In this document: positions 3,547-10,073 of the stretch, piece after piece
Position numbering within the stretch: the first letter of the stretch is position 1
Layout: each line of letters opens with the position of its first letter
From: Oscillospiraceae bacterium
GTDB lineage: Bacteria; Bacillota_A; Clostridia; Oscillospirales; Oscillospiraceae
Length of the DNA stretch: 14,500 nucleotides
Direction: 5' to 3'
Assembly (NCBI GenBank): GCA_021771675.1
Contig: JAETOP010000135.1
Location: 1 to 14,500 of the forward strand
Notes under the pieces: model-generated
Told to the model about the DNA's origin: nothing
Seen by the model: the letters and a program-made list of their open reading frames with translations, nothing else
Databases searched by the model: none
Made by a program: the position numbers and the translations under genes

Positions 3547-3570
3547 TACGGAAAAGTGTACCCTTCCGAA
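3547..3570 (+). repeat. Inverted dyad site L (recombinase or operator site)
   Basis: A 24-bp dyad centred between G3558 and T3559. It contains CGGAAAAGTGTAC (3549-3561), which is repeated perfectly in inverted orientation at 3671-3683. Over the 22 bp from 3549 to 3570 the two sites agree at 19 positions. Dyad symmetry of this copy is 8 of 12 pairs. It starts about 18 bp after the recombinase stop codon. The size, dyad nature and position suit a small serine recombinase site, but a repressor operator would look similar. Confidence 0.7.
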
Positions 3571-3596
3571 ACTACATTCATTATTTCCCACACCCT

Positions 3597-3602
3597 TATA
3601 AT
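3597..3602 (+). promoter_or_regulatory. Candidate -10 box for the flagellar cassette
   Basis: A perfect TATAAT lies between the two inverted dyad sites, about 108 nt upstream of the tldR ATG and pointing towards it. The -35 position (around 3573-3579) is poor, so the promoter may be weak or activator-dependent. A gapped repeat TGAAAAATT (3616-3624) with AATTTTTTCA (about 3651-3660) and T-tracts follow, which could fold as a leader hairpin. Inversion of the segment 3571-3661 would turn this box to face the recombinase gene. Confidence 0.4.
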
Positions 3603-3661
3603 CGGCACCATGCCTTGAAAAATTAAGGGGTTTGCGGGATTTTTTTGCGCAATTTTTTCAC

Positions 3662-3685
3662 TTCGAAAAAGTACACTTTTCCGAA
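3662..3685 (-). repeat. Inverted dyad site R (recombinase or operator site)
   Basis: Second copy of the dyad, inverted relative to the one at 3547-3570, with GTACACTTTTCCG at 3671-3683. Its own symmetry is 10 of 12 pairs, centred between 3673 and 3674. Read in the same sense, both sites have GT as central dinucleotide, which in a serine recombinase would permit inversion between them. Centre-to-centre distance is 115 bp, close to 11 helical turns, which would also suit looping by a repressor. It ends 24 bp before the tldR start. Confidence 0.7.
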
Positions 3686-3709
3686 ATCTCAGGGGAAGGG
3701 TGTCACATT

Positions 3710-8600: not shown

Positions 8601-8713
8601 TCGCTGACCAAGAGAGCGCCGCCAAGGCAGTGGACGCCATCAAGTCCGCTATCAACTACGTCTCCGCCCAAGCGAACCAGATGCCCCAGGGCGTGCTCCA
8701 GCTGCTCCAGTAA
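5672..8713 (+). CDS. fliC: Very large flagellin with C-terminal core deletion
   Basis: The 1013-residue product begins with an excellent flagellin D0/D1 domain (M-R-I-Q-H-N-I-P-A-M-S-A-Y-R-N...L-S-S-G-Y-K-I-N-R-A-G-D-D-A-A-G-L-A-I-S-E-K-M-R, to N-F-N-G-I-N-L-L-D-G-S near 130-140). A surface-exposed insert of about 830 residues follows, rich in Thr, Ala, Asp, Gly and Lys, with diverged internal repeats (D-K-D-G-N-A-I at about 422, 588 and 644). The C-terminus starts normally (A-I-G-I-G-D-A-S-I-A-D-Q-E-S-A-A-K-A-V-D-A-I, from 968) but at residues 998-1003 jumps from V-S-A-Q straight to A-N-Q-M-P-Q-G-V-L-Q-L-L-Q. Flagellins normally have about 60 more residues there (Q-N-R-L-E-H...I-R-D-x-D-M-A). 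The frame stays open. Assembly into filaments is therefore doubtful. ATG 5672 has GAAAGGA upstream. Exported through the flagellar type III system in relatives. Confidence 0.93.
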   Translation: MRIQHNIPAMSAYRNYTNNVAAMKKNLEKLSSGYKINRAGDDAAGLAISEKMRAQITGLETAQKNAKDGISLVQTAEGALTEVHDMLNRMVELASMSANGTYDNTTDRAQLQKEMDQLKAEINRIADSSNFNGINLLDGSMDSKADLTKFSDKLQIAEWVGSTQNSLADVGDGTIVHNGQQEAKATTFSVELNNSTVTGDKGVSITIGDNEALTLTADEISEGASADEIAAAIASKYGKDGVDFLAEDGTTKVNFDVKAQGDKIVFTQKEMPKNASEIVGSKFAIKYEGIGAVSESNSSASLNTGALTVTAPGTNNTGVTAQTFKWADGATAEQRNALNKLIEDNTTATTTVSIDVIAKTGATAKKVENYSVDITSLQKALGDGYTVTAKIKDGAEVKADEVDPNIFNLANAANASNLQLTISDKDGNAIGMIDLALTGSGTDVNGAAAANTDYKGTFTLGQGTPLNTNPTSTFKDDGNMLPAAVTTGTANAFVADGGITAKQQNAFNELLGEKGLNISFQLSDLAGNATQAGSKIKITFDQALTDAGYTLKIGDGTNETEVKAGKDISFATAAAAGVLKTDATATLKIYDKDGNAIGAIALDLTAANTKLNTGVTTVTLNRSNFTADATETGKVLAEKAAITMTDKDGNAITVDNWASATAGDGADLAKDGSTMSIDIEGKTYTVTFKGSGLSEEEKASGKFIDLSDNNVYNGTNFGVADTKPASILAAFQGALRQQLANAAKEGALGTEDYKSYANLTLATGATPDTNTVKITANVTNHSYSIAGNGTEEAGAVPGGISVNGGKDPNASTTHNTTGQIADAGRLASTFITNDMLEGLKDGSQFKVGDVTYTFAVGKDSKVTGDNVIDLRDMTAADKDLVEKAMERLSHADNEMFSIGYDKGRVTFTENKEYKWGEGVDLSTRDGIAEQFAFSVDGKASGKSLTLQIGDTADEYNQLKVNIADCHVDAIGIGDASIADQESAAKAVDAIKSAINYVSAQANQMPQGVLQLLQ

Positions 8714-8757
8714 AAAGCTGTTCACGGTTGTTTTTGGAAAACAGCAAAGACCACCAA

Positions 8758-8789
8758 GGGGACGGGCTTCGGCCCGTCCCCTGCTTTGT
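8758..8789 (+). terminator. Strong hairpin terminator after flagellin
   Basis: GGGGACGGGC (8758-8767) pairs perfectly with GCCCGTCCCC (8772-8781) around a TTCG loop, followed by TGCTTTGT. The T-run is short, so it may be leaky and allow reduced read-through into the methylase gene, or act as a processing or stability hairpin for the abundant flagellin mRNA. Confidence 0.85.
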
Positions 8790-8807
8790 AAATGAGGTGA
8801 GCTCAAT

Positions 8808-10073
8808 ATGCCCAATGAAACAATCAAGATCTTCCTCTACTCCGCGCTGATTCCGAACTTCTACACGAATTTCCGCTGTCTGGCCCAGGATTGCCGGGAC
8901 ACCTGCTGCTCGGGTTGGAGGATTGCGTTTGACAAAAAGGACTATCTGCGCTTGCGCTGCCTGGACGCGCCCGCCGAGGTAAAGGCAAAACTGGACCAGT
9001 GTGTGCGCCGGGAGCGGAATGGCAACAATGATGACGGTTTTTTCGGAAAATTCGATTTGGATTCCAACGGCGGGCGGTGCCCGCTCCAAACCTCGGAGGG
9101 GCTGTGTTCCCTCCAGCTGGCCTGCGGCCACAAGGCCCTGCCTGGTGTATGTATGACCTATCCGCGGGAAATCGGATATACCCCCGCCGCCAAAGAATAC
9201 GCTCTCTCCCCGTCCTGCGAGGGGGTGCTCCAGCAGCTCTGGGATCTGCCGGACGGCGTGGAATTTGTAGAAAATCCCTTGTCAAAAGTGGAACAAAGGA
9301 CTGTGAACATTCCGCGTGGAGAAAATCTCACGCCGCACTTTGCGCCGCTGCGCAGTCTGTTCATTGATATTCTGCAAAACCGGGCGATGCCCCTGCACCA
9401 GCGGATGCTCCTTCTGGGAATTGTACTTCAGCGGCTGCAAAAGGAGGACTGGACGAATTTTGACCCGGACAACTGGGTTGAACGGATGGCCGCTTTGACT
9501 GATGCGGGCACTGTCAAGGACATGATTGCAAATATTGCCGGAAACAGGGATATGTACGTACTTCAGAACCTGCACGTTTTGGATACGATTGCTGCGGCGG
9601 GAGCGCACTGGCCCACCCAGCTTTACAATACATTGGGTGTCAAGCAAAAGGCCGAAGCGGTATCTGATGAGAATGGGGAAATAGGGCGTGTGGCCCAAAT
9701 TACAACCACCTTTTCCCCCAAAGCCTATGAGGACGCGCTGAAACAGTTCCAGGCATCGTTTTCGGATCACGAATATTTCTTTGAAAATCTGATGGTCGCC
9801 GTTTCACTATATCTGAGCTTTCCAAATCTAAGCAGCAGGGAGGCGTTGTGGAAAAGCTATGTTTCCCTCTGTAATCTGTATAGCTTTTATCATTTTGTAT
9901 CGGTTCTGAGCTGCAAGGAGGACGTCTCAAAGGAGCGCCTGTTTCACATGATCGTCATGGCCAGCAGGGCAACGATGCATAATAGGGACCGCTTAAACGG
10001 TTTTCAGGAGGACCTGTTTCAGAATGAGAGCTCGACACTGGCCCATATGGCAATCCTGTTGCTCTGGAACTAA
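8808..10073 (+). CDS. fliB: Flagellin lysine N-methylase FliB
   Basis: The 421-residue protein matches the FliB family, which methylates surface lysines of flagellin. The cysteine signature of the family is complete: F-R-C-L-A-Q-D-C-R-D-T-C-C-S-G-W (Cys24, 29, 33, 34), then C-P-L-Q...L-C-S-L (Cys91, 100), Cys106, G-V-C-M-T-Y-P-R (Cys115) and S-P-S-C-E-G-V (Cys137); relatives are thought to carry an iron-sulfur cluster. The C-terminal two-thirds is helical with no motif I recognise. Length is normal for the family. ATG 8808 has AGGTGA upstream. It lies 94 bp after the flagellin stop, beyond a hairpin, and its codon use is less GC-rich than fliC. Its natural substrate is most likely the Lys-rich insert of the adjacent flagellin, although it could also act on resident flagellin. 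Confidence 0.9.
   Translation: MPNETIKIFLYSALIPNFYTNFRCLAQDCRDTCCSGWRIAFDKKDYLRLRCLDAPAEVKAKLDQCVRRERNGNNDDGFFGKFDLDSNGGRCPLQTSEGLCSLQLACGHKALPGVCMTYPREIGYTPAAKEYALSPSCEGVLQQLWDLPDGVEFVENPLSKVEQRTVNIPRGENLTPHFAPLRSLFIDILQNRAMPLHQRMLLLGIVLQRLQKEDWTNFDPDNWVERMAALTDAGTVKDMIANIAGNRDMYVLQNLHVLDTIAAAGAHWPTQLYNTLGVKQKAEAVSDENGEIGRVAQITTTFSPKAYEDALKQFQASFSDHEYFFENLMVAVSLYLSFPNLSSREALWKSYVSLCNLYSFYHFVSVLSCKEDVSKERLFHMIVMASRATMHNRDRLNGFQEDLFQNESSTLAHMAILLLWN

Follow-up and report, generated by a model that had tools for sequence, protein, structure and literature searches.

Flagellin genes accompanied by TldR, a nuclease-dead TnpB, are known from two settings, both treated by Walker et al. 2026 (PMC13418256). 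The csrA-associated TldR loci of Oscillibacter and Flavonifractor, called chromosomally encoded in that paper, combine a nuclease-dead TnpB, an adjacent guide RNA, csrA and fliC with an upstream hin and an inversion of about 120 bp holding a FliA-type promoter; experiments on these loci placed TldR target sites inside fliC reading frames and found CsrA enriched at a fliC leader (PMC13418256). The Flagellin Remodeling prophages (FR-phi) of Enterobacter are phage-borne and carry a guide to the fliC promoter region, and neither CsrA nor FliB is mentioned for them in the sections of that paper describing them (PMC13418256). Here we describe a 14,500-nucleotide stretch from an Oscillospiraceae bacterium (assembly GCA_021771675.1, contig JAETOP010000135.1, positions 1 to 14,500; hereafter the window), nearly all of which is one predicted mobilizable element inserted in a maff2 gene. 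The element likely carries a cassette for replacing the flagellin of its host, comprising TldR, predicted to be nuclease-dead and to use an adjacent guide RNA, along with a CsrA-like protein, a flagellin of different sequence at the guide site, a predicted flagellin methylase (FliB) and a probable Hin on/off switch.

The hin-tldR-csrA-fliC core is already known from the 2026 study (PMC13418256), so that the initial annotation does not hold as regards the novelty of a Gram-positive system of TldR, CsrA and flagellin. Like the Oscillibacter and Flavonifractor loci, the window has csrA and fliC adjacent to tldR, hin upstream, a predicted guide RNA whose target would lie inside the fliC reading frame, and a predicted promoter between inverted repeats; unlike them, its unit lies on a MobQ/serine-recombinase element inside maff2 and includes FliB, and the main text of the 2026 paper contains neither 'FliB' nor 'mobiliz' (PMC13418256). 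As in the FR-phi prophages, a mobile element brings TldR together with an alternative flagellin, but the backbone here is that of a mobilizable element rather than a phage genome, and the target would lie inside the reading frame (PMC13418256). By their published descriptions, the maff2-inserting elements IME_Rho_tet (PMC12904643) and those of streptococci (PMC5357655) share the serine recombinase, the relaxase and the insertion in maff2 of a conjugative element; the window differs from them in its cargo, a flagellin cassette beside a Hin switch. Among the papers listed in literature searches on flagellin cargo of conjugative or mobilizable elements none was on point, and among those listed for TldR or TnpB with flagellin or CsrA only PMC13418256 dealt with the subject. 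What is new, as far as searched, is that the carrier is mobile, that FliB is present, that position 10 of the guide is mismatched almost everywhere, and that the Hin-flanked slot holds surface-protein or metabolic cargo in sister elements. In Salmonella Hin/fljBA phase variation, a Hin-type inversion acts on the promoter from which one flagellin is expressed together with a repressor of the other; in the window the role of FljA would fall to an RNA-guided TldR, together with a CsrA-like protein, and the whole lies on a mobile element.

TldR (3710–4897, forward strand) matches the TnpB family model NF040570 at 228.9 bits (cut-off 100) and the ISDra2 TnpB structure 8h1j at E 2.7e-42. Alignment places K205, R289 and E371 at the three RuvC catalytic positions, which we take to be D191, E278 and D361 in ISDra2 TnpB. 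The protein is therefore predicted to be nuclease-dead, in agreement with the dead TnpB of the initial annotation. Of 81 related loci, 80 cover position 205, and none of them has D there; K/R/E occurs in 60 of the 81, the third D is kept in 2, and at least one position is uncovered in five. In a list of 120 homologues that contains the window's own, K/R/E is found in 119 and K/R/D in one. The gene order likewise recurs, with flagellin after tldR in 61 of 64 testable loci, csrA and flagellin both following it in 49 of the 64, and hin upstream in 48 of 70 testable loci. Of 34 genomes, 13 have more than one tldR place. Oscillibacter sp. 1-3 (G019) has four, one partial and one with an internal stop, and four csrA-tldR loci have been described in an Oscillibacter strain (PMC13418256).

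A structured RNA of about 180 nt (4916–5097) follows tldR in the guide position, where the initial annotation had placed one, with a folding energy of −71 kcal/mol (z −3.55; 0 of 200 shuffles as stable) and a long predicted stem; a two-part guide RNA processed by RNase III marks the csrA-associated TldR clade. It consists of a predicted scaffold (4916–5081, forward strand) and, directly 3′ of it, the predicted guide AACATTATGACTATGA (5082–5097, forward strand). In all, 66 sequences were extracted, three more being missed by the motif, and the 43 of similar length were aligned; their consensus fold has 43 pairs, in 27 of which at least one sequence is changed on both sides with the pair kept. 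The register of the guide was taken from a survey of 82 loci (the window, 80 genome loci and one viral contig). Guides of the relatives were placed by best match to a motif drawn up after inspecting the loci, so that the register is partly by construction; the place of the guide beside the scaffold and its variation are not. A guide of this register follows the scaffold in 69 of the 82 loci, and in four more distant relatives (L071–L073 and L078, judged by eye) it seems to be shifted upstream in the same gene to the flagellin codons R-I-Q-H-N. Three loci end before any sequence 3′ of tldR, and six have no such guide, among them two cut by contig ends (L045, L062) and three with a partial tldR or N (L076, L077, L080). 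Within the window, the pattern AAYATHATGRCNATG with at most one mismatch occurs once, at the guide (0.06 expected; 12 of 200 shuffles had one).

The guide equals the flagellin codons N-I-M-x-M, codons 6–10 of ordinary flagellin genes. The initial annotation had suggested that guides should match flagellar genes of carriers, and they do match other flagellins in the carrier genomes. For this comparison, 134 flagellin starts were collected from 63 of 65 carrier genomes by a pattern that misses other start shapes. A first count over guide positions 1–9 covered 51 loci having a flagellin that is not beside a surveyed locus; the other flagellin had the better fit in 43, the cassette's own in 1, and the two were equal in 7. 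Eight of these other flagellins adjoin a further tldR and were dropped, leaving 47 loci in 40 genomes, with some of the remaining flagellins, counted as tldR-free, lying at contig ends where the neighbour is not visible; in this set the tldR-free flagellin is the better fit in 42 loci, equal in 5 and worse in none. With one locus per genome (n = 40), the figures are 35, 5 and 0. The best tldR-free flagellin has no mismatch at guide positions 1–9 in 37 of the 47 loci. When guides were shuffled among the 47 loci, the mean number of mismatches was 20.1 against 12 observed, and none of 20,000 shuffles was as low; guide position 12 agrees in 28 of 47, against 16.7 in shuffles (2 of 20,000 as high). 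In L060 and L068 the guide mirrors an unusual AATATTTTG start that another flagellin of the same genome has. The cassette's own flagellin mismatches its guide at one or more of positions 1–9 in 63 of 67 loci. For the window's flagellin, whose site reads AACATCCCCG, there are 4 mismatches in positions 1–9 and 1 in the first 6. Candidate target sites would be flagellin starts reading AACATTATGG or AATATTATGG, with the window's own AACATCCCCG site left unbound, and a host flagellin reading AACATTATG at codons 6–8 would fit a guide aimed at the host.

Guide position 10 (window position 5091) is A in 66 of 69 loci, and all 134 flagellin starts have G there. Across the 47 guide-flagellin pairs, agreement is seen in 46 at position 9, in 2 at position 10 and in 47 at position 11. 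In the consensus fold A10 lies opposite a scaffold U as a pair without a both-sided change. Pairing of guide bases 9–11 with the scaffold GUC may be the cause of A10; that pairing is predicted, but its two inner pairs lack a both-sided change. A structural role, or a safety mismatch, is our guess for this position.

Beyond the parts named in the initial annotation, the locus has a Hin-type invertase, a predicted promoter flanked by inverted repeats, and element ends that split maff2. The invertase gene hin (2927–3529, forward strand) encodes a Resolvase domain at residues 5–148 (E 9.6e-30) and probably starts at ATT. The first ATG, GTG or TTG in its frame lies at 3005, where the open reading frame list begins it; a frameshifted hin was rejected, the frame being open from 2927 with a non-standard start. 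Downstream, a left inverted-repeat arm (3546–3570, forward strand) pairs with a right arm (3662–3686, reverse strand); the arms are 25 nt long, 84% complementary and separated by 91 nt. Between them lies a predicted sigma-28 promoter, TAAT-N15-GCCGATTA (3599–3625, reverse strand). Among 75 regions, such a promoter (at most two mismatches) points toward tldR in 12, away from it in 28, the window among these, and both ways in none; 40 sets of Markov-generated sequences gave a mean of 6.2 and a maximum of 12 hits over both strands. Relatives carry the segment in both orientations, and the window in one. The loci L060 and L068 are collinear, with 97.6% identity over 510 bp, and differ in the orientation of a 121-bp segment whose sequence is 100% identical; inverted segments are also found between L020 and L077 (93%) and between L045 and L046 (96%).

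The protein products downstream of the guide RNA agree in part with the initial annotation. The CsrA homologue (5122–5496, forward strand) has a CsrA domain (PF02599, E 1.9e-14) and a C-terminal extension, but scores far under the classical NCBIfam csrA cut-offs (27.5 bits against 73 and 26.8 against 70.1). Ahead of the flagellin, the leader folds into a strong hairpin that carries GGA motifs (5588–5630, forward strand; z −2.77; 3 of 200 shuffles as stable), a possible CsrA site. The cargo flagellin (5672–8713, forward strand) is 1013 aa long, with the N-terminal domain PF00669 (E 2e-43) as its only match. FliB (8808–10073, forward strand) matches the flagellin lysine-N-methylase model NF038110 at 199.7 bits (cut-off 85), and has no Pfam match at E 0.01. 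Between the two genes, at 8758–8781, lies a GC-rich hairpin with a TTCG loop that is terminator- or processing-like.

Taken as a working system, these parts suggest the following course. Hin would flip the 141-bp segment so that the sigma-28 promoter faces tldR; TldR with its guide RNA would bind codons 6–10 of the host flagellin gene and block transcription; the CsrA-like protein would repress translation of a flagellin mRNA; and FliB would methylate the cargo flagellin. We infer RNA-guided DNA binding, repression and the silencing of the host flagellin from the sequence comparisons above and from the published relatives.

The mobile backbone is defined by the insertion itself. The window begins with the 5′ part of an interrupted maff2 gene (1–116, forward strand) and its right flank holds the 3′ part (14385–14462, forward strand); an 8-bp ATGAAACA starts at 109 and again at 14385, and joining the flanks at this shared sequence gives an open frame whose peptide is Maff2 (PF12750, profile positions 10–70 of 70, E 1.4e-36). 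A second shared 8-mer (144/14291) was set aside as an element end, since joining there leaves no open maff2 frame. The ends were therefore placed by the restored maff2 frame and not by repeat length, and the window is nearly all one element of 14,276 bp from core to core (109–14384). It contains a MobQ-family relaxase (10612–12078, forward strand; NF041496, 254.5 bits against a cut-off of 200) and a large serine recombinase (12632–14287, forward strand; Resolvase, Recombinase, zinc ribbon and DUF4368), as the initial annotation had proposed for a mobilizable element. With an integrase, a relaxase and an insertion that splits a gene, this 14.28-kb unit looks like an integrative mobilizable element in maff2 of a conjugative element and would be expected to excise and, with a helper, to transfer; maff2 is a known insertion site of such elements (PMC5357655, PMC12904643).

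Mobility of the cassette is also suggested by its relatives. One of the nearest, L002, is 90.8% identical over 5.8 kb and has the same left end in another context, where it appears to sit in a serine recombinase gene; its right end lies beyond its contig. The contig of L003 combines hin-tldR-csrA-fliC-fliB with a relaxase, a topoisomerase, ParB and three serine recombinases. Across the 34 genomes, many of them in short contigs, a Relaxase domain lies within 20 kb on the same contig for at least 7 of 55 tldR places; by eye, and among the matches listed, no MobA_MobL domain does so. In a genome outside this set, a MobQ match lies 2.6 kb from tldR (L041). A phage origin was rejected: positions 3540–10080 have no near match in phage records, the CsrA protein has no match there, and all 370 phage records that match TldR stay below 60% identity. 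A plasmid origin was set aside too, the window having no near match in the plasmid search. One hin-tldR-csrA-fliC-fliB locus (L082) comes from an IMG/VR contig filed as viral, and its matches are nearly the same as those of the genome locus L011.

Several observations weigh against a cassette that replaces the host flagellin. The predicted promoter faces away from tldR, and the window copy appears to be switched OFF. Its flagellin gives no match to Flagellin_C (PF00700), unlike four relatives compared, and alignment with these relatives reveals a 60-residue in-frame gap in the conserved C-terminal helices. Among 47 testable related loci, four have a FliB match downstream (L003, L011, L021 and L082) and the other 43 have none, so FliB is not a fixed part of the cassette; a match 57% identical to the window's lies 3′ of the tldR-free flagellin L138 in G010, and FliB therefore also accompanies other flagellins. 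GGA motifs occur in the cassette's own flagellin leader, so that the CsrA-like protein may act on the cargo flagellin; a CsrA motif was rejected as a feature separating host from own leaders, GGA being found in both (5 host leaders available). Own flagellins show no extra mismatch to their own guides relative to shuffles (13,995 of 20,000 as high in the first test and 13,525 of 20,000 in the 47-locus test). The idea that each own flagellin has been tuned away from the guide of its locus is thus not supported; escape instead separates two classes of flagellin. In 7 of the 47 loci, including the nearest relatives L002 and L003, position 3 of the guide is mismatched by every tldR-free flagellin found, and this position falls inside the 6-nt seed reported for Enterobacter TldR (PMC13418256). 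For the window copy itself, the match between guide and host is indirect, by way of the genomes of relatives. Ten neighbours of the tldR-free flagellins L137 (G001) and L138 (G010) were tested and include no flagellar assembly gene, so that taking these two for the main flagellin of the host is an inference.

The state of the promoter and the flagellin bears on a possible but doubtful alternative, in which the window copy is a decaying cassette: a swap unit brought by the element that has lost its working flagellin and is silent. Of the other cassette flagellins, 57 reach a stop, and 55 of these are without the gap, the remaining two stopping early (judged by eye; 15 more run off their contigs), and PF00700 is present in all 119 other flagellin homologues listed, of 837 found. 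The C-terminal region of flagellin is needed for filament assembly. With 60 of its residues missing, the window flagellin is probably unable to form a normal filament, although an assembly error could also account for the gap. The orientation of the promoter adds to this case, but facing away is a common state (28 of 75 regions), and the cassette genes are open frames, the gap in the flagellin being itself in frame. The hin gene is, moreover, 100% identical to that of L002 over the aligned part. The initial annotation is partly supported: a cassette for flagellin replacement on a mobilizable element is the reading with the best support from sequence, but this copy appears OFF and has a shortened flagellin, and the effects on antigenicity, TLR5 detection or phage sensitivity that it proposed are hypothetical.

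The mismatches at position 3 give some weight to an unlikely alternative, that the main targets of the guide are flagellins belonging to competing cassettes or to other strains, rather than that of the present host. The AAC-type guides of L002 and L003 mismatch at this position the sole tldR-free flagellin found in G001 and G002, 13 of the 34 genomes hold more than one tldR place, as noted above, and in G052 a AACATTATGG flagellin start adjoins another tldR. Against this stand the mismatch-free fit of a tldR-free flagellin in most of the 47 loci and the two guides that follow the unusual AATATTTTG start within their own genomes. That TldR and its RNA are IS200/IS605-type leftovers without a role in flagellin, their neighbours being coincidental, is very improbable: binding and repression by this TldR are predictions, but many loci share both the catalytic loss and the order of the genes, the guides vary along with other flagellins of the genomes in which they lie, and relatives have been reported to bind within fliC (PMC13418256). 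Replacement of the host flagellin remains the reading that we prefer.

The setting of the cassette was compared in eight regions around MobQ-type relaxases of 488–490 aa. Five of these (L143–L147, from genomes G023, G018, G060, G016 and G019, respectively) have XRE, hin, cargo, MobQ and serine recombinase in the order of the window, and the other three have no hin match. The cargo between hin and MobQ includes a protein with S-layer homology in four of the five sisters, three of them with leucine-rich repeats, and in L144 it consists of AMP-binding and acyltransferase genes. Inverted repeats with 88–90 nt between the arms are present in three of the five; a sigma-28-like promoter (at most two mismatches) downstream of hin was found in none of them. 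The flagellin cassette thus seems to occupy a Hin-flanked cargo slot, and the sister elements may switch their cargo in the same way. A wider reading, which we put forward as plausible but tentative, is that there is a family of mobilizable elements with a Hin-controlled, exchangeable cargo slot, filled in some members by giant S-layer or leucine-rich surface proteins. Under it, the window would be a complete RNA-guided kit for flagellin replacement whose own flagellin escapes the guide, and the position-10 mismatch would perhaps be a safety catch against cutting of the chromosome by an active TnpB.

The remaining genes of the element lie outside the cassette. An Rpn/PD-(D/E)XK family protein (230–1180, reverse strand) matches PF12784 just under its cut-off (E 3.6e-6; 27.3 bits against 27.4). 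It is followed by an XRE-type regulator (1244–2386, reverse strand; HTH_3, E 1.1e-12) whose true start may be internal. A small open reading frame (10318–10611, forward strand) adjoins the relaxase gene and has no match in NCBIfam; its counterpart in the sister L144 is DUF3847. Rfam gave a sole match at E 1 or better in the window, at 10134–10209 and under its gathering score. One MobQ/serine-recombinase region (L141, on G001:C54) carries an 87% identical Rpn gene and an EF-G-like protein, and no flagellin cassette.

The guides, the host codons and the escaping flagellins together form dozens of natural guide-target pairs for the study of TldR specificity, and they include a conserved mismatch that simple complementarity does not predict. 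If the reading given here is correct, replacement of the main protein of an organelle is not confined to phages. Gut Firmicutes would exchange by conjugation a reversible set of genes for silencing the host flagellin at the level of DNA, and perhaps of RNA, and for supplying a substitute. The Hin-flanked cargo slot, if it exists as proposed, would in turn tie the phase variation of surface proteins to mobile elements.

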